A stretch of 64,000 nucleotides of DNA from Chloroflexota bacterium (lineage in GTDB: Bacteria > Chloroflexota > Anaerolineae > Anaerolineales > E44-bin32), in contig JADFRQ010000007.1 in the NCBI GenBank assembly GCA_022561215.1, positions 1 to 64,000 of the forward strand, given 5' to 3'. Positions 924 through 14,630 of the stretch are shown one piece after another; within the stretch, counting starts at the first letter, position 1; each line of letters begins with the position of its first letter. The position numbers were made by a program, and so were the translations under genes. The notes under the pieces are model-generated. The model saw nothing but the letters and a program-made list of their open reading frames with translations, made no database searches and had not been told where the DNA came from.

Positions 924-1568
924 ATGACCGAAGAGGCTGCCGTTCAGGCCCCGGTGGAAGCTCCTCTGAGTGTTGCTTTAACACGGCGAGAGTTTCTTTA
1001 CTATTTGTGGGGTGCGTCGATGGCCGTTTTCACGGCCGCCTCCGTTGGAGCCACAATTTGGTTTGTTCTGCCGCGGTTCCGTGAAGGTGAATTTGGTGGA
1101 GCGTTCACTTTCCCAATCTCCGAATTACCGCCACCCGATATTGCGCCAAAGGAATTTGCCCAAGGCCGCTTCTGGCTTGTAAATGTCGGCCAGTTGTCAC
1201 TCGACGATACGCGCAGGCCGTTAGAGTACCCGCTGAATCTGGGAATTCGCGCCATTTTCAAGGTTTGTACACATCTTGGTTGTCTTTACAAATGGAATAC
1301 CATAAATGATCGTTTCGAATGTCCATGCCACGGCTCGAAATTTTTAAAAATGGGAACTCGAATAAGTGGACCTGCGCGGCGCAATCTTGACTTGTTCATC
1401 GTTGAAATATTGGATGCGTCGGGAACGGTGCTCGCGCGCACAGAACCCTCGATGGGCAGCAATGAGGGCACGGCGGTTGAAGTGCCCAGTAATGCAGCAT
1501 CGTTCAGGGTGGATACAGGGCGTACGGTAAAAGGCGCATTGAACTCCAAACCCGGTGGGGGATCCTAG
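924..1568 (+). CDS. Rieske 2Fe-2S protein of the bc/b6f-type complex
   Basis: This is the iron-sulfur subunit (214 aa) that takes electrons from quinol at the cytochrome b Qo site and passes them to cytochrome c. The cluster ligands are in CTHLGC (residues 115-120) and CPCHGS (133-138), in the canonical two-box arrangement of high-potential Rieske proteins. The N-terminus has a twin-arginine motif TRREFL (20-25) followed by a membrane segment (about 27-49), as expected for a Tat-exported, membrane-anchored Rieske protein. The usual GPAPRPL loop appears as GPARRNL. An AGGAG ribosome-binding site sits 9 bases before the ATG. It is the first gene of a three-gene operon, with cytochrome b starting 10 bases after its stop. 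Confidence 0.95.
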   Translation: MTEEAAVQAPVEAPLSVALTRREFLYYLWGASMAVFTAASVGATIWFVLPRFREGEFGGAFTFPISELPPPDIAPKEFAQGRFWLVNVGQLSLDDTRRPLEYPLNLGIRAIFKVCTHLGCLYKWNTINDRFECPCHGSKFLKMGTRISGPARRNLDLFIVEILDASGTVLARTEPSMGSNEGTAVEVPSNAASFRVDTGRTVKGALNSKPGGGS

Positions 1569-1577
1569 GAGGAACCT

Positions 1578-3167
1578 ATGCCAATATTTGAAGTCCACCT
1601 CCCTCTTCTGGATGAAATTAAAACAAAGGGCTTGAAGCTTGCTCTGCAGGGTATGGCTGATAATGCCGTGGAAAGGTTAACATCGGGTCTGGGAATTTCT
1701 GAAGTGCGCGCAGTCATGCGCGATGATCCTCCTCCGAGGCCAAATCCGCGATTAAAGCCGCATGCCGAGGGATTTTGGCTGCACATGCGGCCCACTTATT
1801 ACAACAATTTGCTCGATGGCATCTACCCAAGCTTCTTGCTGGGATGGCTATCTACTTTTTTCTTTACCTTCGAAATTATCACCGGCATTTTCCTCATGGT
1901 TTACTACACGCCATCCCCACTCGTGGCCTATGACAACATGCTCAATATTCTCAGCAACGTCCCCTTTGGCCGCTTAATGCGTGACATGCACAAGCTTGGA
2001 GCCGAGCTGATGGTAGCGATTGTCGCGTTGCACATGTTGCGTACATTTCTCACGGGCTCGTATAAGAAACCGCGCCAATTTACCTGGGCGACCGGATTAA
2101 TCCTGCTATTAGTGACAGCGCTCCTGTCGTTTTCTGGCTATCTGCTTCCCTGGGATCAGCTCAGCCTCTGGGCAGTTACCATTGGCGCTTCCATGGCCGA
2201 AGCCGCGCCGCCAGAAATAGTGGGCAAGACACTTAACCTCATTGTGCGCGGTGCACCTGAATTTGGCGCCGGCGGTCTTTTAAGATTCTATTTATTGCAT
2301 GTGATTTTTCTTCCCCTGGTTGGTTTGCTTGCATTCGGTGTGCATTACTACAAGGTCATTCTTCACGGGCATAGTCTGCCGCCGGAGGCTGAAGAAGTCG
2401 GGGTGGATACTGCCAGAAAAGTACCCATAAAGGTGCGGACTTATTTCATGCCCAGGATCCTCACGCGTGAATTATTTTGGGTCGCTATCCTTTTGGCGAT
2501 CATGGTCCTGTGGAGCGCGTACCTCTTCCATGCTCCACTTGAGCCGCATGCTGAATCCTTGATAACCCCGCTGCATATCATCTCACCCTGGTATTTTCTT
2601 TGGCTGCAAGGCATGCTCAAATTAGGTGACAAAGTGATCTGGGGAGTGATTCTCCCAACGATCTTGATCGGCGGCCTGCTTTTCCTCCCCTATATTGAAG
2701 TGGGTCCAAGTCGACGTTATGGCCATCGCCGGATTGGGCTTTCGGCGGCAATGCTGTTTGTGGCGGGGATAATAATCTTATCGTTTATGGGGACGCCCTT
2801 TTACGGGGTGGATACTTCGCCAGAGCAAGAAGCGGTTGCTGTCTTGGTTCCGGAAACCGAACCTGGCCCACTGCGACTCTCTGATTGGGATGAATTGGAA
2901 ACGGGCGTCTACGAATCGGCTGCATGGAATATCGCACCGAACCGAACGCTGCGCGATCTGCTGCATACTTTTAATGAAGAAATTGAAATTGCCGAATATG
3001 GTGGGCGTACGGGGTGGGAAGGCGTGATGGTTATTGAGGATTGGCAGCCCGGTCTCAAGAAAATTACGCTGCGGGTGCTGTGGATTGATCAAGCAACCGG
3101 CGATCCGGGCGAGTTCAACAATTCTACCTACCTGCATCAAAACAGCGATTACGGACAGGGAGAGTAA
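1578..3167 (+). CDS. Cytochrome b6/subunit IV fusion (529 aa)
   Basis: This is the membrane dihaem core of a quinol:cytochrome c oxidoreductase. Haem ligands are H138 and H152 in the second core helix, and H241 and H256 in the fourth. The 15-residue spacing of the second pair is the b6 pattern rather than the 14 of mitochondrial-type cytochrome b. SGYLLPWDQLS precedes the Qo region. The C-terminal half matches subunit IV, but the PEWY Qo motif reads SPWY (ISPWYFLW), so the glutamate is replaced. A non-membrane N-terminal extension of about 65 residues precedes the haem domain. After the last membrane helices there is a soluble tail of about 120 residues. The ribosome-binding site AGGAGG is close to the ATG. 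The next gene begins 2 bases after the stop. Confidence 0.95.
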   Translation: MPIFEVHLPLLDEIKTKGLKLALQGMADNAVERLTSGLGISEVRAVMRDDPPPRPNPRLKPHAEGFWLHMRPTYYNNLLDGIYPSFLLGWLSTFFFTFEIITGIFLMVYYTPSPLVAYDNMLNILSNVPFGRLMRDMHKLGAELMVAIVALHMLRTFLTGSYKKPRQFTWATGLILLLVTALLSFSGYLLPWDQLSLWAVTIGASMAEAAPPEIVGKTLNLIVRGAPEFGAGGLLRFYLLHVIFLPLVGLLAFGVHYYKVILHGHSLPPEAEEVGVDTARKVPIKVRTYFMPRILTRELFWVAILLAIMVLWSAYLFHAPLEPHAESLITPLHIISPWYFLWLQGMLKLGDKVIWGVILPTILIGGLLFLPYIEVGPSRRYGHRRIGLSAAMLFVAGIIILSFMGTPFYGVDTSPEQEAVAVLVPETEPGPLRLSDWDELETGVYESAAWNIAPNRTLRDLLHTFNEEIEIAEYGGRTGWEGVMVIEDWQPGLKKITLRVLWIDQATGDPGEFNNSTYLHQNSDYGQGE

Positions 3168-3169
3168 GT

Positions 3170-4009
3170 ATGAAGTTGACCGTTGTGCTCGGGACTCTAA
3201 GCTTCTTTGTTCTCGTCATCGCGATTGTCTTCATCGCGGCTAACGAACAAGACCGCATGGAATCCTTTACTCAATCGTACCAATCACGTCAAATTGAAAC
3301 CGGTGCGGCGCTCTTCGAAAACAACTGCATCATTTGTCATGGCCCTCAAGGTAGAGGAATAGATTCCGTCGGCCCGGCAATTAACGCGGCCGATCTCTTT
3401 AATGGTGAAAGGCTGGGGAGTTTCGGTTTCTCTGGCACAGTTGAAAATTATCTGCGTGGTGTGATCTCTGCTGGTCGCCCGGTTCCAAGTGAGGGAACCG
3501 ACTTCCCGGAGAGAATGCCGACCTGGGGTATGGATAACGGCGGCCCAATGCGCGACGATCAAATTAACGCATTGGTTGAGTTCATCATGAATTGGGAGGA
3601 AGTCGCCCTCGCCCGCGGCGAAGATAAGCCGGATGGGGGAACGCCTGGGGAAGGTGTAGGAACCGATATCACGATTGCCTTGCCGGCCGGTGATCCAGAA
3701 GTGGGCGAAGAGCTCATTGCTGGCACTTTGGCGTGTGCGGCCTGCCATGTTTTGGGGCCTGCCGGTCCTGCCTGGGCCGCAGAGGCTGGCATCCCGGGTA
3801 TCGCAACCCGCGCCGAAAGCCGCACTTCGCAGGATGACTACACTGGCGAGGCATCGGATGCAGTGCAGTACCTGATCGAATCGATCCTGCTTTCTGATGC
3901 CTATGTAGTGGATGGGTATCTGTCAGGAATCATGCCCGCCAATTATTCTCAGCGTCTCAATGTGCAGGAGTTAGCGGATATCATTGCCTACCTGCAGAGT
4001 CTCCCCTAG
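3170..4009 (+). CDS. Membrane-anchored dihaem cytochrome c
   Basis: This 279-residue electron carrier probably accepts electrons from the Rieske protein. An uncleaved N-terminal membrane segment (about residues 4-23) anchors it. Two cytochrome c domains follow, with haem-binding motifs CIICH (53-57) and CAACH (189-193). Likely axial methionines lie in ERMPTWG (Met116 region) and in GIMPANYS near the C-terminus. The two domains are joined by a Gly/Pro/acidic linker (about 150-170). The gene begins 2 bases after cytochrome b and ends the operon, followed at once by a strong terminator. Fused di-cytochrome subunits next to b6-type proteins are known in several bacterial phyla. The physiological acceptor is not in this window. 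Confidence 0.93.
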   Translation: MKLTVVLGTLSFFVLVIAIVFIAANEQDRMESFTQSYQSRQIETGAALFENNCIICHGPQGRGIDSVGPAINAADLFNGERLGSFGFSGTVENYLRGVISAGRPVPSEGTDFPERMPTWGMDNGGPMRDDQINALVEFIMNWEEVALARGEDKPDGGTPGEGVGTDITIALPAGDPEVGEELIAGTLACAACHVLGPAGPAWAAEAGIPGIATRAESRTSQDDYTGEASDAVQYLIESILLSDAYVVDGYLSGIMPANYSQRLNVQELADIIAYLQSLP

Positions 4010-5925: not shown

Positions 5926-5934
5926 GTGAGATTG

Positions 5935-6456
5935 TTGAGCGAATATTCAGTAGAAGATAGGAAGGGAAGTTCCCCGGGACGCACAAAATTTATGCTTGGG
6001 GGACTATTAATAGTTCTCGCCGTAATCTACTTGATCGCTTCTGCGACTCAAGCGGCAGCTCAATACTATTTGACGATCGACGAATTGATCGCTAAGGGTG
6101 ATAGCTTCGGTGATCGCGATATCAAAGTATCGGGCGCGGTCGACGGCGAGTCGATCGTCTACGATGCGAAATCATTGACACTGCGATTCACGGCGGTCAA
6201 CGTCCCTGCAGATTTGAGTGAAATCGAGGCCGCCGGTGGGCTTGCAAAGGTTTTGTACACGGCATTGCGGGACCCCAACGCCAGCAGGATTGAAATTGAA
6301 TACATCGGCCCAAAGCCTGATCTATTGCGGCACGAAGCCCAGGCAATTGTGACAGGACGGATGGGATCGGATGGCGTATTCCACGCCGATGAATTGCTGC
6401 TGAAATGCCCAACACGCTATGAAGGAGAAATTCCTATCCAATCTGATGAAAGCTAA
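5935..6456 (+). CDS. ccmE: CcmE haem chaperone, CXXXY variant
   Basis: CcmE holds haem covalently outside the membrane and passes it to CcmF for attachment to apocytochromes. The protein (173 aa) has an N-terminal membrane anchor (about residues 18-37 from this start) and an OB-fold region. The conserved C-terminal site, usually HXXXY in proteobacteria (LAKHDENY), reads LLKCPTRY here. The haem-binding His is therefore replaced by Cys (about residue 158), while the Tyr (162) is kept. This CXXXY form is known from archaea, Desulfovibrio and some Gram-positive lineages. I place the start at TTG 5935 because GAGGTGA (5923-5929) is a good ribosome-binding site for it. A GTG at 5926 would lie inside that site. 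It is the first gene of the ccm operon. Confidence 0.9.
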   Translation: MSEYSVEDRKGSSPGRTKFMLGGLLIVLAVIYLIASATQAAAQYYLTIDELIAKGDSFGDRDIKVSGAVDGESIVYDAKSLTLRFTAVNVPADLSEIEAAGGLAKVLYTALRDPNASRIEIEYIGPKPDLLRHEAQAIVTGRMGSDGVFHADELLLKCPTRYEGEIPIQSDES

Positions 6457-6564
6457 CATAAAGGCGGATGGGAACGTTGCTATTTGCAATCCGGGCTGGA
6501 TTTCCAGCCCGGTCCGTATATTCGACGCCAGGATGAATACTGTCAATGGCTTAAGGGGGGCTTC

Positions 6565-8631
6565 TTGAATACATTCGTGGTGCCCAACATTGGCCTTTTT
6601 TCCTTATTCTTAGCATTTCTTGTCGCGATTTATGCCGCAGTGGCGGCAGTTTTCGGCGTCCGACAGCAGAATCCAAAGTGGATTGAAAGTGGGCGCGCGG
6701 CGATGCTGCTTACGTTCCCATTGTTAAGTATCGCCTGCGTGGCCCTCATTTTCTTGCTTGTCACCGGGCGTTATGAGTTTAAGTATGTTGCCTCGGTGAC
6801 CAGCGATACAATGCCTACCTACTTGAGAATCACGTCTTTGTGGGGAGGCCAAGCGGGATCATTGCTCTTTTGGTCGTGGTTAATGGCGGCCTTTACCGGC
6901 GCGGTTGGTTTGCGGAAATGGGATCGTGATCGCGAATTCTTGCCTTGGGTAATCTTAGTGACTATGGGTACTTTGGCATTTTTTCTATTGCTCGTCGTAT
7001 TCATTGAGAATCCCTTTGCACGTCTCTGGCAGTCGCTAGACGGAAGTCAGATCGCGGCGCCATTCCGACCTCGCGGCGCCGTTCCGCTATTTCCTAGCGA
7101 TGGTATAGGATTAAATCCCCTGCTCCGTCATCTCGGAATGATCATTCATCCTCCAATGCTCTATTTGGGATTTGTCTCCTATGTTATTCCGTACGCATTC
7201 GCTATCGCCGCATTGGCGACTGGGAGAACCGATGCACGCTGGATAAAGCTCACCCGCCGTTGGTCGCTGGTTGCTTGGCTTTTCCTTTCGCTCGGGCTCA
7301 TCCTCGGTGGTCGATGGGCATACGATGTCCTGGGTTGGGGAGGCTATTGGGGTTGGGATCCAGTTGAGATTGCGGCTTTAATGCCCTGGTTGGCGGGCAC
7401 AGCATTTTTACACTCTGTGATGATTCAAGAAAAACGTGGGATATTGAAACATTGGAACATGCTGCTTATCATTCTCACCTATGCGCTGGTAATATTCGGG
7501 ACATTCCTTACTCGATCAGGCGTACTATCTTCGGTGCATGCTTTTGCTCAGTCAGCCATGGGGCCGCTATTCTTGGGGTTCATCGGCGTCACTTTTATTT
7601 CCTCCGTCGCGCTCCTGATTCATCGCTGGAGCGATTTGAAGGGAGAGAATCATCTTGATTCCGTGATTTCCCGGGAATCCTTATTCCTCCTAAATAATTT
7701 GCTCTTCATGGGTATTCTAGTCATATGTTTTTGGGGGGTGCTATTCCCACTTATTTCGGAATTGTTCACGGGGCAGAAAGTGACGGTGGGCCCGATTTTT
7801 TACAAAAGGGCAACTGCCCCACTCTGGGGTGGGATACTTCTTTTAATGGGGATTGCACCGCTCTCTGTTTACGGGCGCACCTCATGGCAGCGATTGGGAA
7901 GTGCGCTCTGGAAACCTGCCCTGGCCGCGCTGATTTTCGAATTTATTCTTGTTGTTCAAGGAGTGCGCAGTATCGCGGCCCTTATTGGTTATGGGCTCGC
8001 TGCCTTTGTTGCATTTGTGACACTTTACGAATTTTGGAGGGGAACGAAAGCGCGCCGTAAGAGACATAAGGAAAGCTTTCCTACGGCGCTCTGGCGAATG
8101 GCGCGTCGAAATCGACGCCGTTATGGGGGCTATGTCATTCACCTGGGGATTGTCCTGATGGCATTTGGGATTATAGGGATTGAAATGTTTCAGACAGAGA
8201 CGCAAGCCACACTTGCGCAAGGCGAGCAGCTAACCCTCGGCAGGTACACGATGGTCTTCGATTCGCTGAGTGAATGGGATACCAATGAGGGTCGCAATGT
8301 AGCCCGCGCAGTTGTTCAGATTTACCGGGAGGATAAATTTTTAGGCGAACTTTACCCTAGAAGAGATTTCTATTATGCCTCGCAGCAGTCCATGACCATT
8401 CCCGGTGTGAGATCGACTCTAGAAGATGATTTTTATGTGCTGCTTGTCGGTTGGGAACCAATCGCGGCGCAAGGCACGACCTTTAAGGTCTATCACAATC
8501 CGCTGGTGAACTTTATTTGGATGGGTGGTTTTGTTTTTATTTTGGGCACTCTGGTCGCGGCTTGGCCGGAACGAGAGTCGCTCCCAAGTCGAAAAAGAGT
8601 CTCCACTCGTGGAGCTTTGATGCGAGCCTAG
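6565..8631 (+). CDS. ccmF: CcmF haem lyase subunit
   Basis: CcmF is the integral membrane haem-lyase component that ligates haem to apocytochrome c with CcmH. The 688-residue protein has many membrane helices, the tryptophan-rich WWD signature (GWGGYWGWDPVE) and conserved histidines in IIHPPMLYLG and AFLHSVMIQEKRG. It ends with a long periplasmic region and a last helix before the cytoplasmic tail, as in the family. The frame is open further upstream, to a TTG at 6484. TTG 6565 is preferred because AAGGGGGG lies just before it and translation then begins directly at the first helix (NTFVVPNIGLFSLFL). The ccmH ATG follows 11 bases after the stop. Confidence 0.95.
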   Translation: MNTFVVPNIGLFSLFLAFLVAIYAAVAAVFGVRQQNPKWIESGRAAMLLTFPLLSIACVALIFLLVTGRYEFKYVASVTSDTMPTYLRITSLWGGQAGSLLFWSWLMAAFTGAVGLRKWDRDREFLPWVILVTMGTLAFFLLLVVFIENPFARLWQSLDGSQIAAPFRPRGAVPLFPSDGIGLNPLLRHLGMIIHPPMLYLGFVSYVIPYAFAIAALATGRTDARWIKLTRRWSLVAWLFLSLGLILGGRWAYDVLGWGGYWGWDPVEIAALMPWLAGTAFLHSVMIQEKRGILKHWNMLLIILTYALVIFGTFLTRSGVLSSVHAFAQSAMGPLFLGFIGVTFISSVALLIHRWSDLKGENHLDSVISRESLFLLNNLLFMGILVICFWGVLFPLISELFTGQKVTVGPIFYKRATAPLWGGILLLMGIAPLSVYGRTSWQRLGSALWKPALAALIFEFILVVQGVRSIAALIGYGLAAFVAFVTLYEFWRGTKARRKRHKESFPTALWRMARRNRRRYGGYVIHLGIVLMAFGIIGIEMFQTETQATLAQGEQLTLGRYTMVFDSLSEWDTNEGRNVARAVVQIYREDKFLGELYPRRDFYYASQQSMTIPGVRSTLEDDFYVLLVGWEPIAAQGTTFKVYHNPLVNFIWMGGFVFILGTLVAAWPERESLPSRKRVSTRGALMRA

Positions 8632-8642
8632 TGGGAAGGTCA

Positions 8643-9128
8643 ATGCGCGATTCATTCGTGCGCGTCTTTGGATTGGCCCTTGTGTTAATTGCACTTGTGG
8701 CTGCTCCTGCATTTGCTCAGGATCCAGAACCCTCTGACGATGAAGTTAATCGGATTGCCAAGCAACTCTATTGTCCGGTGTGTCCGAATACCCCATTGGA
8801 TGTTTGTTCCACACAGGCGTGTGCGCAGTGGCGCGCAACGATTCGTGAACAGCTTGAACTTGGTTGGAATGAAGATCAAATACGACAATATTTCGTCGAG
8901 CAATATGGAGATCGAGTGCTTGCAACACCGCCGGCGAGGGGCATTAATTGGCTTATTTATGTACTTCCCCCTGTAGTGATTATTGTTGGCGGTCTATTGC
9001 TTTTGCGGACCATCAGAAGCTGGATCGGGACAAATAATGGGCGACTTGTTCAAGAAGAACTGTTACCAGAGAAGGATGTTTATGTGAACCAACTTGAAGA
9101 TGAACTTCGACGAAGAGAGTCAGGTTAA
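8643..9128 (+). CDS. ccmH: CcmH apocytochrome thioreductase subunit
   Basis: CcmH keeps the CXXCH cysteines of apocytochromes reduced and presents them to CcmF. The 161-residue protein has a cleavable signal peptide (ending near PAFAQDP). The family motif LYCPVCPNTPLDVC contains the redox CPVC pair, at about residues 40-43. Two further cysteines (VCSTQAC) are not typical of CcmH. One C-terminal membrane helix (about 102-122) is followed by a charged cytoplasmic helix. The ATG at 8643 has GGGAAGG ahead of it and begins the signal peptide. The longer frame upstream overlaps ccmF and is not likely used. Confidence 0.93.
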   Translation: MRDSFVRVFGLALVLIALVAAPAFAQDPEPSDDEVNRIAKQLYCPVCPNTPLDVCSTQACAQWRATIREQLELGWNEDQIRQYFVEQYGDRVLATPPARGINWLIYVLPPVVIIVGGLLLLRTIRSWIGTNNGRLVQEELLPEKDVYVNQLEDELRRRESG

Positions 9129-9158: not shown

Positions 9159-9734
9159 ATGGAAAAACTGAGTGGAATACAAGAAAACAGAGAGTTTGTT
9201 GAAGCGCGCGAGACTTCGCGAAATTGGGGGACGATGCTTGTCTGGGCGTTGGTGCTCGGATTGTTGGCCATTCTCGGTTTAGGCCTCGCACGAGCGCAGG
9301 AGGGCCCAATTGGCATTGGAAGAAACGTTCCGGAATTTACACTAACCACATTTGATGGCGAGCAGCTAAACATCAATAAATCCCGAGGAAAAGTGGTCCT
9401 CGTAAATTTCTGGGCGTCGTGGTGCAAACCCTGCCAGCAAGAGGCAGCTGAGCTTGAAGAGGCTTATCAAAATTTCAAAGATAGAGATGTTATTTTTCTG
9501 GGGGTCGATTACGTTGATACCGAAAAAGAGGCCCTGGCATACTTGGAAAAATTCCAAATTACGTATGCAAATGGACCGGACCTAGGAACAAAGATCTCGC
9601 AAGCTTTTCGAATTCGCGGTGTCCCTGAAACCTTCATTATCGATCGAAATGGAATCATCGTCGATATTAAGATAGGTCCCTATACATCCCTTGCGGAAAT
9701 TGAGAATGCCCTGCAGACTGCGCTCGAGCAGTAG
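9159..9734 (+). CDS. ccmG: CcmG/DsbE-type thioredoxin-like protein
   Basis: This is a membrane-anchored periplasmic thiol-disulfide oxidoreductase (191 aa) that donates electrons to CcmH or apocytochrome. It has an N-terminal cytoplasmic stretch, one membrane helix (about residues 28-46) and a thioredoxin fold with the active site WASWCKPC (CXXC near residue 90). The later cis-Pro segment is RGVPETFIID. The redox-partner role fits its position just after ccmH in the ccm operon. TlpA/ResA-like proteins look similar, and context is the reason for calling it CcmG. Confidence 0.88.
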   Translation: MEKLSGIQENREFVEARETSRNWGTMLVWALVLGLLAILGLGLARAQEGPIGIGRNVPEFTLTTFDGEQLNINKSRGKVVLVNFWASWCKPCQQEAAELEEAYQNFKDRDVIFLGVDYVDTEKEALAYLEKFQITYANGPDLGTKISQAFRIRGVPETFIIDRNGIIVDIKIGPYTSLAEIENALQTALEQ

Positions 9735-9826: not shown

Positions 9827-10315
9827 ATGGATATAGGTTCGATTATGGCAATCTTTGCATTGGGGATATTCGTTTTTACCTTTATAGCCCGTCCATTCTT
9901 TGAAAAAAAAGGCGTCAAGGATACCTATTATGGGAGGCAACTTTCGAGCCTGCTTGCCGAGCGCGACCGGATCCTGACCATATTGCAGGAATTGGACCTG
10001 GACTATGCGATGGGGAAAATTATCGAGCGCGATTATGCTGATCAACGATCAACGCTGGTAACACGCGGCGCAACCGTATTAAAAAATATCGACCTGCAGC
10101 AGGAAGAATTTGATCTTCGAAAGGAATCGGGCAATGCGCTCATTGCCACGGAGCAAGTCGATTCACTGATCGAAGCTGCAATCACACTGAAGCGAAAAAC
10201 GAAACGCGGAGCATTAAGCAACTACTGCGGCCAATGTGGGAATGCTCTGCAAGCCGGAGGTCAATTCTGCTCGCGCTGCGGTGAGCCGATCGTCGTCATG
10301 GAGGCCGAGGCGTGA
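9827..10315 (+). CDS. CcmI-like membrane protein with zinc ribbon
   Basis: This 162-residue protein starts with a membrane helix (about residues 5-24). Next comes a helical segment containing LAERDRILTILQELDLDY and GKIIERDYADQRSTL, which resembles the N-terminal cytoplasmic region of CcmI (an ELdxdyaxGKixexDYxxxR pattern). It ends in a zinc ribbon, YCGQCGNAL then FCSRCGEPI. CcmI chaperones apocytochrome in other bacteria, but its TPR domain is missing here and replaced by the ribbon. The gene sits between ccmG and a dihaem lipoprotein gene, whose GTG start overlaps its stop by 4 bases. A role in cytochrome c assembly is inferred from motif and operon position. Confidence 0.8.
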   Translation: MDIGSIMAIFALGIFVFTFIARPFFEKKGVKDTYYGRQLSSLLAERDRILTILQELDLDYAMGKIIERDYADQRSTLVTRGATVLKNIDLQQEEFDLRKESGNALIATEQVDSLIEAAITLKRKTKRGALSNYCGQCGNALQAGGQFCSRCGEPIVVMEAEA

Positions 10316-12102
10316 GGTCGCTCGGTATTTGCTCCACATTTCTTGCCATCTTAATCACTGGTTGCAGCCTGGCCGGCGATATTACCCCACCTGTCGCATC
10401 TCAACCTGAGGTTATTTCCAGTCGCGAGCCAGGCCCTGCGGTCGAAGCGATATTGGCGCCACCTCCGAATGTGCAACCTGATCTCACGCGTGGGGCGGAA
10501 ATCTTCTCCGAAAAATGCGCTTCTTGTCATGGCGATTTGGGCCGCGGAGGAGGTTCTTTAGCGAGCAATTTGCTCCCCGATTTTCCGCCCGCTCCAATTG
10601 GGGATCCCGATTACGCGCGCGCGGCAAAACCCGAGGATTGGTTTCAAGTCGTGAGTATCGGAGTTGCCGACAGGCTTATGCCTGGCTTTGCCAGTTTAAG
10701 CGCCAGAGAACGGTGGGATGTCGTCGGCTACGCTTTCTGGCTGGCGCTTTCAAACGAAGTTTCCGATTCAATGGATGAAGTCTTCACCGCAAATTGCCTG
10801 GACTGCCATCGTGATGAGGATTTAAGTACATCGCCTTTCGCATCACTTTCCGGAGCGAGCGTGGATGATCTTTATCAATCGATCTCCAACGGAGTTGCGC
10901 CTGGGATGCCGGCTTTTGAAGCACTTATTCCAGAGGATCAGCGCCATATCCTGGCAGCTTACTTCATGCTCCGCAGCCTCGTGGGAAATGATGACACGAC
11001 AGCTCTCGCGGATACCGATATTGAGCCAACGCTACGAACTATTCGAGGGCAGGTAGTAAATCGAACTACAGGTGGCTCCATTGCGCAGGGTTTGCAATCG
11101 ACATTGCATGTATTTGCGGATGGATTGGAGGTCCAGACTGAGCAAAGCACCCTGGATGCGAATGGCGAATTTAATTTCGAAGATGTAGAAATTATGGCTG
11201 ACCAAACGATTATCGTCACGGTGGAATTTCAAGGAGTGCTCTATGGGACGCAGTTTATCCAAAGCGCGCCGCAAGAAGATCAATCCCTGACGTTGGATAT
11301 TTATCAATCGACAACGGATATGACCAAGATTGTTGTTGATCGACTGCATGTTATTTTTAGCCAACCAGAACAAGGGATTTTGGAAGTCACCGAACTGTGG
11401 ATCGTTTCCAATCGAGGAGATGAGACGGTTGCAAATGTGAGTGGCGAAGGTGTTTTGCAGGTGAACCTCCCCGAAGGAGTTTCGAACTTAAAGTTTGAGA
11501 ACGGCGGCATAGGTGATCGTTTTCAACTTGGCGACTCCGGGTTTGTTGATAGGATCCCTTTGCGACCGGGGGAACCAAATCATGAAATTGTATTCTCATT
11601 TGAGATGGCTTACGATGAGGAGCTAGAATTTTCACAATTGGTGCAATATCCGGTGCAAGCCATCGTTATCCTATCACCCGAATCTGGGCCAGAATTATCC
11701 GGGAAAAAGTTACAGGATCTGGGATTTCAGGAGCTTAATGGCGCAACCCTTCATAACTACAGTACACCTCCATTAACACCGGGAGATAGGCTCACTATAA
11801 CCGTAAGCGCAAGCACCTCTGCACCGGCTGAGCGCACCGATTTGCTTCTGGGAGGAATTGCTTTGGCTGCAGCGCTATTTGGTGCTGGTTTTTGGTGGTC
11901 GAGGATGGATAGGAAACTTGTCGCGGCAGAACCTCAGGATGTGCAATCGATTTTGAAATCTCAGGATCCTCTTATTCAGCGAATTGCGGATCTAGACGAT
12001 GCATTTGACAGTGGGGAAATCAAGGAAAATGATTATCTTAAACAAAGAACATTGTTGAAGGAGAAACTTCACCGTGTGTTAAGAGAAGAATTGGATGATT
12101 GA
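10312..12102 (+). CDS. Dihaem cytochrome c lipoprotein with CcmI-like cytoplasmic tail
   Basis: This 596-residue protein begins with a lipoprotein signal (LAILITGC, Cys18). Two c-type haem motifs follow, CASCH (69-73) and CLDCH (162-166). A large beta-rich extracytoplasmic region (about 235-500) leads to one membrane helix (about 515-535). The cytoplasmic tail contains IADLDDAFDSGEIKENDY, the same pattern as in the CcmI-like neighbour. The start is GTG 10312, overlapping the upstream stop as GTGA, with GGAGG ahead. Its last 8 bases overlap ccmA. An architecture with an exported haem domain, membrane helix and CcmI-like tail inside a ccm operon is unusual. It could be a haem-attachment partner or an electron carrier matured in cis. 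The function is unknown. Confidence 0.85.
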   Translation: MRSLGICSTFLAILITGCSLAGDITPPVASQPEVISSREPGPAVEAILAPPPNVQPDLTRGAEIFSEKCASCHGDLGRGGGSLASNLLPDFPPAPIGDPDYARAAKPEDWFQVVSIGVADRLMPGFASLSARERWDVVGYAFWLALSNEVSDSMDEVFTANCLDCHRDEDLSTSPFASLSGASVDDLYQSISNGVAPGMPAFEALIPEDQRHILAAYFMLRSLVGNDDTTALADTDIEPTLRTIRGQVVNRTTGGSIAQGLQSTLHVFADGLEVQTEQSTLDANGEFNFEDVEIMADQTIIVTVEFQGVLYGTQFIQSAPQEDQSLTLDIYQSTTDMTKIVVDRLHVIFSQPEQGILEVTELWIVSNRGDETVANVSGEGVLQVNLPEGVSNLKFENGGIGDRFQLGDSGFVDRIPLRPGEPNHEIVFSFEMAYDEELEFSQLVQYPVQAIVILSPESGPELSGKKLQDLGFQELNGATLHNYSTPPLTPGDRLTITVSASTSAPAERTDLLLGGIALAAALFGAGFWWSRMDRKLVAAEPQDVQSILKSQDPLIQRIADLDDAFDSGEIKENDYLKQRTLLKEKLHRVLREELDD

Positions 12103-12793
12103 GGCGAAGAAGGTAGTTAAGCGGTTTGGTTTAAAAGTTATCTTGAAGGGGGTTGATTTTCATGTTAAGCGGGGTGAATTTGTGGTATTGGTGGGCCCCA
12201 ATGGCGCGGGGAAAACAACCTTCCTGCGCATTCTGGCAACCCTTTCGCGTGCCAACATGGGCGAAATTAAAATCGGCGGATTTCATCTTCCTCGAGATGC
12301 GGCAAGTGTGCGAAAAATCCTGGGTGTAGTTTCTCATCAACCCTTGCTGTATGGGGATCTTACCGCCGAAGAAAATTTGGAATTCTACGCTCGAATGTAC
12401 AACCTACAGAATGTCTCTGAGCGCGTGCAGGAAGTGCTCGTGTTGGTAGGCCTTCAGGTGCGTCGCAAAGACTTGTTGCGTGAATTTTCGCGCGGTATGC
12501 AGCAGCGTTTGGCCATCGGGAGAGCAATACTTCATAATCCCACATTGCTGCTCTTCGATGAGCCGCATAGCGGTCTGGATCAAGAGGCGGCAGCGATGTT
12601 AGACAATCTTCTGCGCGAAGTTGCGGCGCAGGGCAGGACGGTTGTAATGACCTCCCATGATCTTTTGCGGACCCCCGGTCTAGCGAGCCGTGTCGATATC
12701 CTTTCCAAAGGCGTCATCCATGTTTCGCTTCGTGGCGCAGATCTGGAGCCCCAGAAGTTTCCCGAATTGTATCGGTCGGCAGTTAATGATTGA
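12095..12793 (+). CDS. ccmA: CcmA haem-exporter ATPase
   Basis: This is the ABC ATPase (232 aa) that with CcmB and CcmC releases holo-CcmE during cytochrome c maturation. It has Walker A GPNGAGKTT (about residues 33-41), the signature FSRGMQQR, Walker B LLLFDEP, and the switch histidine in TSHDLL. Its length is typical for CcmA. The ATG overlaps the end of the preceding lipoprotein gene, and its own end overlaps ccmB by 8 bases, which suggests translational coupling. Confidence 0.93.
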   Translation: MIEAKKVVKRFGLKVILKGVDFHVKRGEFVVLVGPNGAGKTTFLRILATLSRANMGEIKIGGFHLPRDAASVRKILGVVSHQPLLYGDLTAEENLEFYARMYNLQNVSERVQEVLVLVGLQVRRKDLLREFSRGMQQRLAIGRAILHNPTLLLFDEPHSGLDQEAAAMLDNLLREVAAQGRTVVMTSHDLLRTPGLASRVDILSKGVIHVSLRGADLEPQKFPELYRSAVND

Positions 12794-13520
12794 GCCCTCG
12801 CGATCAATGGGGCAGGCCCCCGTTACTCCAAGTAGACGCCATGCAGCAAAAGCCTATCTAAGAGCTCTGGGTGCGGTCCTCTGGAAGGACGTAGCCGCGG
12901 AATTAAGGAGCCGGGAATTGGTGGGCGCAATGCTGATCTTCGGATTCCTTGTAATCCTTATTTTTAATTTTGCGCTTAGTTTGGATGCGCGCACCAGAGG
13001 GACTGTTACGGCTGGAGTCCTTTGGGTAACCTTCGCATTCTCCGGGACGCTGGGGTTAAATCGTTCCATGGCCATCGAAAAGGAGCGTGGCTGCTTCGAT
13101 GGTCTGCTATTGGCGCCAGTGGATCGTAGCGCGATTTACTTTGGAAAGGTCCTTGGAAATCTTCTTTTCATGTTGATTGTCGAATTGTTGGTCATTCCGC
13201 TATACTCCATCCTTTACAATATTAATCTCTTCATCCCTGAATTGTTCCTGGTCATCTTGCTTGGCTCGATTGGTTATACGGTGGTTGGCACGTTGCTATC
13301 CTCAATGGCGGTTCAAGCGCGAACACGCGATTTACTTTTGCCGATTCTGCTTTTCCCCGTCGTCCTTCCGCTTCTTATTGCCGCGGTTAATGCGAGCAAG
13401 GGGATTCTTCAAGGATTCGAACGATCCGAAATCATGTTTTGGCTCAATATCTTGATCGTATATGACATTATTTTTACTGCGGTAGGTTTTATGGCGTTTG
13501 ATTATGTGGTAGAGGAGTGA
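12786..13520 (+). CDS. ccmB: CcmB haem-exporter permease
   Basis: This is a membrane subunit (244 aa) of the CcmABC complex with six predicted helices. Family features include the early WKDVAAELRSRE segment and the LLLAPVDRSAIYFGK region after the second helix. The start is ATG 12786, in an ATGATTGA overlap with the ccmA stop. A longer frame upstream lies wholly inside ccmA and is unlikely. It is followed by about 140 bases with a short imperfect repeat before ccmC. Confidence 0.92.
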   Translation: MIEPSRSMGQAPVTPSRRHAAKAYLRALGAVLWKDVAAELRSRELVGAMLIFGFLVILIFNFALSLDARTRGTVTAGVLWVTFAFSGTLGLNRSMAIEKERGCFDGLLLAPVDRSAIYFGKVLGNLLFMLIVELLVIPLYSILYNINLFIPELFLVILLGSIGYTVVGTLLSSMAVQARTRDLLLPILLFPVVLPLLIAAVNASKGILQGFERSEIMFWLNILIVYDIIFTAVGFMAFDYVVEE

Positions 13521-13586: not shown

Positions 13587-13663
13587 TGGAGCGAAGAGCA
13601 GGATATGGAATTCCCTGATCACGGGTCCCATTCGCTCTCTATAGAACTTTATTGGAGGAGGTT

Positions 13664-14365
13664 ATGAATCGCGTGCCGAAAACGCTAAAAACTTTGAATA
13701 GGATCACCAGTATAAGTTTCGCCGTCGCGCTCTACTTGGTGTTTTTTTATGCGCCACGTGAGGCAATTATGGGCGATGTTCAGCGTATATTTTATTTTCA
13801 CGTGGCAAGTTTTTGGGTTGCCGCACTTGGTTTTCTCGGGGCCGCCATTGCAGGTGGGATCTATCTCTCCCGTAGGACTAGAAAATGGGATCAGGTAGCG
13901 CTGGCCTCCATCGAGGTCGGCGTAGTCTTCACCTTTATTAATATTGTCTCTGGATCAATCTGGGCGCGTCCAGCCTGGAATACGTGGTGGACCTGGGATC
14001 CACGGCTGGTGACGGCGACAATCGTGGAACTCATTTACTTCGCCTACATCATGCTTCGACAAGGAATTGAAGATCTCGATCGCCGGGCGAGATTCGGCGC
14101 GGTCTACGCGATTGTGGGCTTCATCAGCGTTCCCATTACATTTCTCTCCATCCGCTATTTGCGCACCATTCACCCAGTTGTTATTGGCAGTGCGAATCCG
14201 AATGCAGAAGGTGGTTTTGACATGACCTCCAGGATGCGCGTAACCTTCTTTTTCAGTCTCATCACCTTTTCCCTGTTATACGCAACTTTGTTATGGCATC
14301 GGCTGCGCTTAGAAAGAATCGGGGAGAAAGTCCAAGCTTTGAAGATGAAAATTCTTTCAGCCTGA
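13664..14365 (+). CDS. ccmC: CcmC haem-handling permease
   Basis: CcmC (233 aa) loads haem onto CcmE. Six membrane helices are expected. The WWD signature appears as WARPAWNTWWTWDPRL, flanked by conserved histidines in FYFHVASFW and RTIHPVVIG that ligate haem. The ribosome-binding site GGAGGAGG lies 4-10 bases before ATG 13664. A TTG 12 bases further upstream would overlap that site. The 1.1-kb order ccmA-B-C is the classical one. Confidence 0.95.
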   Translation: MNRVPKTLKTLNRITSISFAVALYLVFFYAPREAIMGDVQRIFYFHVASFWVAALGFLGAAIAGGIYLSRRTRKWDQVALASIEVGVVFTFINIVSGSIWARPAWNTWWTWDPRLVTATIVELIYFAYIMLRQGIEDLDRRARFGAVYAIVGFISVPITFLSIRYLRTIHPVVIGSANPNAEGGFDMTSRMRVTFFFSLITFSLLYATLLWHRLRLERIGEKVQALKMKILSA

Positions 14366-14468: not shown

Positions 14469-14630
14469 ATGCTTTTGCAAGAAGGACCGGCGCAAACATT
14501 TAATTTCATGGTTCTTGGCTACGGTTTTATGCTGGGGACAATCGCCTTATTCATACTCAGCTTGCGCGTGCGTTTTCGAAATTTTGAGCGGGACGTCGAT
14601 GCCCTGGAGCAACTTGAGCAAGAAGAATAA
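14469..14630 (+). CDS. ccmD: CcmD-like small membrane protein (53 aa)
   Basis: CcmD stabilises CcmABC and holo-CcmE release. It is a single-helix protein of 40-70 residues and is often missed in annotation. This ORF of 53 residues has AAGGAG 8 bases before ATG and one membrane helix (about residues 13-33, GYGFMLGTIALFILSLRVRF). A charged tail (RNFERDVDALEQLEQEE) follows, matching the usual layout of helix, Arg cluster, and an acidic coiled segment. It directly follows ccmC. The call rests on size, topology and position, because CcmD sequence conservation is weak. Confidence 0.75.
   Translation: MLLQEGPAQTFNFMVLGYGFMLGTIALFILSLRVRFRNFERDVDALEQLEQEE

Follow-up and report, generated by a model that had tools for sequence, protein, structure and literature searches.

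The question raised by this locus is by which residue a CcmE with cysteine in place of the usual histidine would hold haem, and whether the operon around it, in which ccmH and a ccmG-like gene are also present, has to be considered a special case among the known Ccm systems. The window, i.e. the whole stretch of 64,000 nucleotides that was analysed, belongs to a Chloroflexota genome close to the Anaerolineales and contains ten genes which follow each other on the same strand in the order given below; the motif under study is listed directly after its gene.

The ccm operon and the haem-binding position of CcmE

5926..6456, + strand: ccmE, haem chaperone with a CPTRY (CXXXY) site (PF03100, E 4.7e-21)
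6406..6420, + strand: CPTRY motif, Cys161 to Tyr165 (sequence and aligned column, see below)
6484..8631, + strand: ccmF, haem lyase subunit with the WWD segment WGGYWGWDPVE (PF16327, E 1.4e-54; PF01578, E 2.3e-36)
8646..9128, + strand: ccmH, four-cysteine variant (PF03918, E 5.3e-24)
9159..9734, + strand: ccmG-like thioredoxin-fold gene with WCKPC (PF00578, E 1.3e-24; ResA/DsbE models below cut-off)
9827..10315, + strand: small protein with a C-terminal zinc ribbon (weak zinc-ribbon matches; position kept in most named loci)
10312..12102, + strand: c-type cytochrome in which CXXCH occurs twice, at positions 69 and 162 of the protein (PF13442, E 1.9e-20)
12095..12793, + strand: ccmA, ABC ATPase (TIGR01189, 140.2 bits, cut-off 131.6)
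12789..13520, + strand: ccmB (PF03379, E 5.2e-30; frame taken from 12789)
13652..14365, + strand: ccmC with a WWTWDPR segment (PF01578, E 6.2e-28; TIGR01191, E 4.4e-34, below cut-off)
14469..14630, + strand: likely ccmD, a short protein containing a single hydrophobic segment (position and size)

The first-pass annotation had described a full ccm set. This description holds for ccmF, ccmH, ccmB and ccmC, which were assigned by Pfam, and for ccmA, assigned by TIGR01189 (drrA and further ABC models of NCBIfam outscore the latter). It does not hold to the same degree for the remaining two genes: The ccmG-like gene stays below the NCBIfam cut-offs (TIGR00385 dsbE, 70.4 bits at a cut-off of 123.15; ResA model, 102.6 at a cut-off of 170) and is, judged by its sequence, a ResA/DsbE-type thioredoxin. 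The reading frame at 14469-14630 has no family match in Pfam or NCBIfam and is likely ccmD, a name which was given according to position. The true start of ccmB is probably the ATG at 12807. Upstream of ccmE, the genes for a Rieske protein, for a cytochrome b, and for a cytochrome c with two CXXCH motifs are located at 924-4009. Within the operon, a further two-CXXCH cytochrome gene is located between the ccmG-like gene and ccmA, and it is so placed in most of the named loci described below. The zinc-ribbon protein (9827-10315) has no family match; by eye, we take its coiled middle to resemble the start of CcmI.

The ccmE reading frame comprises 176 residues from a GTG start (a TTG at 5935 is an alternative possible start), and its PF03100 score of 75.4 bits in the Pfam profile search is above the curated cut-off of 24.6. 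The C-terminal stretch is LLLKCPTRYEGE, and the protein ends with LLLKCPTRYEGEIPIQSDES; the codon of Cys161 is found at 6406-6408, the one of Tyr165 at 6418-6420. When aligned to CcmE proteins of solved structure, Cys161 coincides with the histidine of KHDENY in 1j6q and with the cysteine of KCP in the D. vulgaris protein 2kct, with weak whole-sequence matches in both cases (E 0.24 and E 0.36, respectively). An alignment of 145 Chloroflexota CcmE rows gave a strictly bipartite column at this position, which consists of 111 Cys and 34 His and contains no third residue. According to these alignments, Cys161 occupies the haem-binding position, and the annotated exchange of the haem-binding histidine for cysteine is borne out. 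The AlphaFold model of CcmE (mean pLDDT 91.5) begins with helix 2-21, which is followed by a beta barrel, i.e. an OB-fold domain preceded by a single transmembrane helix; solved CcmE structures take the first four places among its PDB matches, the best being 8ce8_E (E 2.6e-06). One stretch of the barrel (6184-6294) varies in length: it comprises 36 residues in the families f1, f2, f3, and f10, which thus contain about 25 extra residues, versus 11-16 in nearly all other families and 21 in f4.

A cysteine codon at this position could also originate from a sequencing or assembly error. The relatives refute this explanation and leave it a negligible chance: CPTRY is present in 120/120 of the CcmE homologues listed (the best 120 of 5491), and the same residue recurs in loci which share the operon. 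For the latter comparison, 80 named loci were retrieved with the CcmH of the window as bait, using search patterns outside its cysteine motif. All 80 are Chloroflexota by title, many of them being titled Anaerolineae or Anaerolineales. A ccmE gene is present in 71 of these loci, and the residue is Cys in all 71. All ten genes occur in the window's order in 49 of the 80 loci; most of the remaining ones are truncated at the end of a contig, and a small number deviate, for instance by a CcmA-like match before ccmE or by one undetected gene.

Cys- and His-type CcmE in the Chloroflexota

Searches in a phylum sample of 201 Chloroflexota genomes gave a CcmE match in 141 and a CcmH match in 110 cases. 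The residue table was compiled without G034, whose CcmE is cut at a contig end; the second, identical-ended CcmE copy of G155 was merged and a third, short CcmE fragment of G002 was left out. Among the 140 readable of the 141 CcmE-bearing genomes, 106 are of Cys and 34 of His type. None of these 140 genomes mixed both types among the copies read, five genomes with two distinct copies included, and no family in the sample holds both. In the source's class, all 22 readable CcmE proteins possess the cysteine, and CcmH was found in 22 of the 23 genomes with a CcmE match, G197 being the one without it.

These data bear on the idea that a His-type CcmE encoded elsewhere does the work and that the copy with cysteine is a paralogue which has decayed. 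As the source assembly is 90.8% complete, a second copy could be missing from it; however, the one PF03100 match in the genome is the Cys-type CcmE, the motif is strongly conserved among the 120 best homologues, and the separation of both types in the sample includes those genomes that contain two copies. We regard a decayed paralogue as very unlikely. A misaligned cysteine or a second, His-type CcmE that is always present in related genomes were the two observations which the first-pass annotation had named as contrary to its reading; the analysis of this assembly found the cysteine at the aligned position and a single CcmE match.

CcmH is encoded in 73 of the 106 Cys-type genomes versus 34/34 His-type genomes (9 families). 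It is absent from 33 Cys-type genomes (12 families), so that all sampled genomes with CcmE but without CcmH are of Cys type. The control genome of Methanosarcina acetivorans was matched by the CcmE search and was unmatched by the CcmH search. For the absence of CcmH (33/106 versus 0/34), Fisher's test gave p-values of 4e-05 by genome and 0.088 by family; because the test ignores shared ancestry, the link with Cys-type CcmE is suggestive only. A ccmG-like reading frame was found in the retrieved stretches of 81 of the 106 Cys-type versus 15 of the 34 His-type genomes, which are soft counts due to unequal stretch lengths and the breadth of this family. One close relative from the window's order (G197; loci L114 and L197) possesses a Cys-type CcmE and has no CcmH match genome-wide; it is an exception with respect to the other 14 members of the order with CcmE, all of which encode CcmH.

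A CcmE tree was computed with a quick method from 145 rows and 141 columns, after removal of the motif columns; note that the columns are few and the branches long. This tree needs three Cys/His changes, one of which is forced by well-supported branches, and eight changes in the presence of CcmH. An independent-pairs test on the tree detected no significant link between the CcmE residue and the presence of CcmH: one supported pair (three in all) pointed one way and four (eight) the other way, which are too few pairs with both characters differing.

The first-pass annotation had further proposed that the operon is a useful intermediate for understanding how haem is held and passed on. This proposal is not supported, because the pairing of Cys-type CcmE with CcmH is standard in the lineage and has been in print since 2011. 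Cys is the commoner type in the phylum sample, the majority of Cys-type genomes (73/106) encode CcmH, and the tree does not fix a direction of change.

As candidate markers of the Cys/His switch, residues of CcmC and CcmF were inspected and rejected: two CcmF and three CcmC columns differ in their majority residue, none of them cleanly. At position 122 in the WWD segment of CcmC, threonine occurs in 35 of 57 Cys-type and valine in 25 of 29 His-type genomes, with both letters in both groups.

Known systems and predicted haem transfer

According to a review from 2011 (PMC3601427), Cys-type CcmE occurs in the delta-proteobacteria, the Chloroflexi, and the Firmicutes, with CPSKY as its most frequent motif. 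In the same source, CcmH is reported for about one third of the bacteria with Cys-type CcmE; therefore, the absence of CcmH is not characteristic and does not define the variant. The pairing observed in the window was thus already noted in 2011 and leaves the picture unchanged. The annotated statement that the Desulfovibrio system is described without CcmG and CcmH agrees with PMC3601427.

A comparison with three known systems locates the operon. System I* of Desulfovibrio and archaea (PMC3601427, PMC9084895) shares the CXXXY CcmE, CcmABC, CcmF, and the predicted chemistry, but is described as being without CcmH, and in Desulfovibrio also without CcmG, whereas ccmH is present in the Chloroflexota operon together with a gene resembling ccmG. 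With classical System I of E. coli (His-type CcmE, CcmA-H), the Chloroflexota operon shares a near-complete gene set in which CcmH and also a CcmG-like protein are encoded; in contrast, it has cysteine for the haem-binding histidine and a four-cysteine CcmH. For Geoglobus and Ferroglobus, a CXXXY CcmE is reported together with an atypical, cysteine-rich CcmH without LRCXXC (PMC4600277). Both features, a Cys-type CcmE and an atypical cysteine-rich CcmH, are shared, but the CcmH motif of these archaea is LX[SN]C[EDH]C and stands beside a duplicated CcmF, whereas the Chloroflexota CcmH combines the canonical CxxC with a second pair. With cysteine in CXXXY, CcmE fits System I*, and Cys161 separates it from classical System I, which is characterized by histidine. 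The narrow original definition of System I* by lack of CcmH does not cover the operon, as ccmH is encoded beside ccmE. Judged by the CcmE residue, protein and operon belong to the known System I* type, of which they are an ordinary case. With respect to System II, no ResB match was found in the genome (90.8% complete assembly).

Our preferred reading is that of a Cys-type (System I*) CcmE in an operon also encoding CcmF, CcmH, a CcmG-like protein, CcmA, CcmB, CcmC, and likely CcmD, and we predict with considerable confidence that Cys161 carries haem covalently instead of histidine. It is very likely that CcmE functions as a haem chaperone of the Cys type. CcmABCD would bring haem to the external face of the membrane, and the WWD segment of CcmC would present it to CcmE. 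The thiol of Cys161 is likely bonded to a haem vinyl as a thioether, with Tyr165 being the putative iron ligand. CcmF and CcmH would then hand haem on to CXXCH motifs, which would be kept reduced by the CcmG-like protein and a CcdA/DsbD-type protein. Three DsbD_TM-family matches were found in the genome, one of them below cut-off; these proteins could supply reductant.

Alternatively, CcmE might act as a non-covalent shuttle whose cysteine ligates the haem iron without forming a covalent bond. Non-covalent binding of ferric haem through the Cys has been reported for D. vulgaris CcmE (PMC3884852). However, binding is reported as covalent in D. desulfuricans (PMC3601427, PMC3884852), and in Methanosarcina acetivorans the haem staining of CcmE requires the equivalent Cys (PMC9084895). 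Given these reports, a non-covalent shuttle appears improbable, and covalent attachment to Cys161 remains the prediction. In which way thioether-bound haem could leave CcmE for the apocytochrome is a question that PMC3601427 raises as open. A lineage that pairs Cys-type CcmE with CcmH and a CcmG-like protein is a test system for this step, and Ardenticatena maritima is a named species which carries a four-cysteine CcmH, of whose 42 homologues 38 contain the motif as well.

A CcmH with four cysteines

The CcmH of the window contains Cys43, Cys46, Cys54, and Cys59 (codons 8772, 8781, 8805, and 8820), which form the motif CPVC-x7-C-x4-C. The nearest solved structures are 2hl7 and 2kw0, and CPVC corresponds to the CxxC of the three-helix periplasmic CcmH domain; the best match of the fold model (pLDDT 87.1, pTM 0.54) is the solved CcmH 2hl7 (Foldseek E 2.4e-03). 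The second cysteine pair (region 8772-8822, CxxC-x7-C-x4-C) aligns with the SVADSxSxLA stretch of two-cysteine CcmH. The four-cysteine motif was found in 80/80 named loci and in 120/120 homologues (the best 120 of 1425). All four cysteines are invariant in 15 four-cysteine CcmH proteins from ten families, which were chosen for that motif.

Among the 73 Cys-type genomes with CcmH, 42 possess a two-cysteine form, 24 the four-cysteine form, four a CQCGC form, and three a divergent one; the CcmH of the His-type genomes is of the two-cysteine form in 34/34 cases. Four rows were read by eye, with G086 assigned to the two-cysteine form, G078 having no CxxC, and G167 and G189 being divergent. Extra cysteines thus occur in 28/73 Cys-type versus 0/34 His-type genomes (Fisher p-values of 3e-06 by genome and 0.018 by family), a link with Cys-type CcmE which, for the reason given above, is likewise suggestive only.

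In the open-access literature searched, we found no description of a four-cysteine CcmH, and this detail may be new. As a tentative and rather unlikely interpretation, the four-cysteine CcmH could be a partner specialised for Cys-type CcmE, in which Cys54 and Cys59 help to free haem from the CcmE cysteine or guard the latter, e.g. via a mixed disulphide between CcmH and CcmE or a metal site. The operon would then stand between the His type and the Cys type without CcmH, as a third working variant of System I.

Two further deviations of CcmH were observed beside Cys-type CcmE. The third form, CQCGC-x(n)-CxC, is encoded in the four genomes G002, G017, G026, and G110 (loci L187, L188, L189, L194, and L143), in one of them beside a two-cysteine copy. 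The divergent CcmH of G078 (L195) reads LICPTASG, and the one of G189 (L196) reads CPCCGQDIGSCTC.
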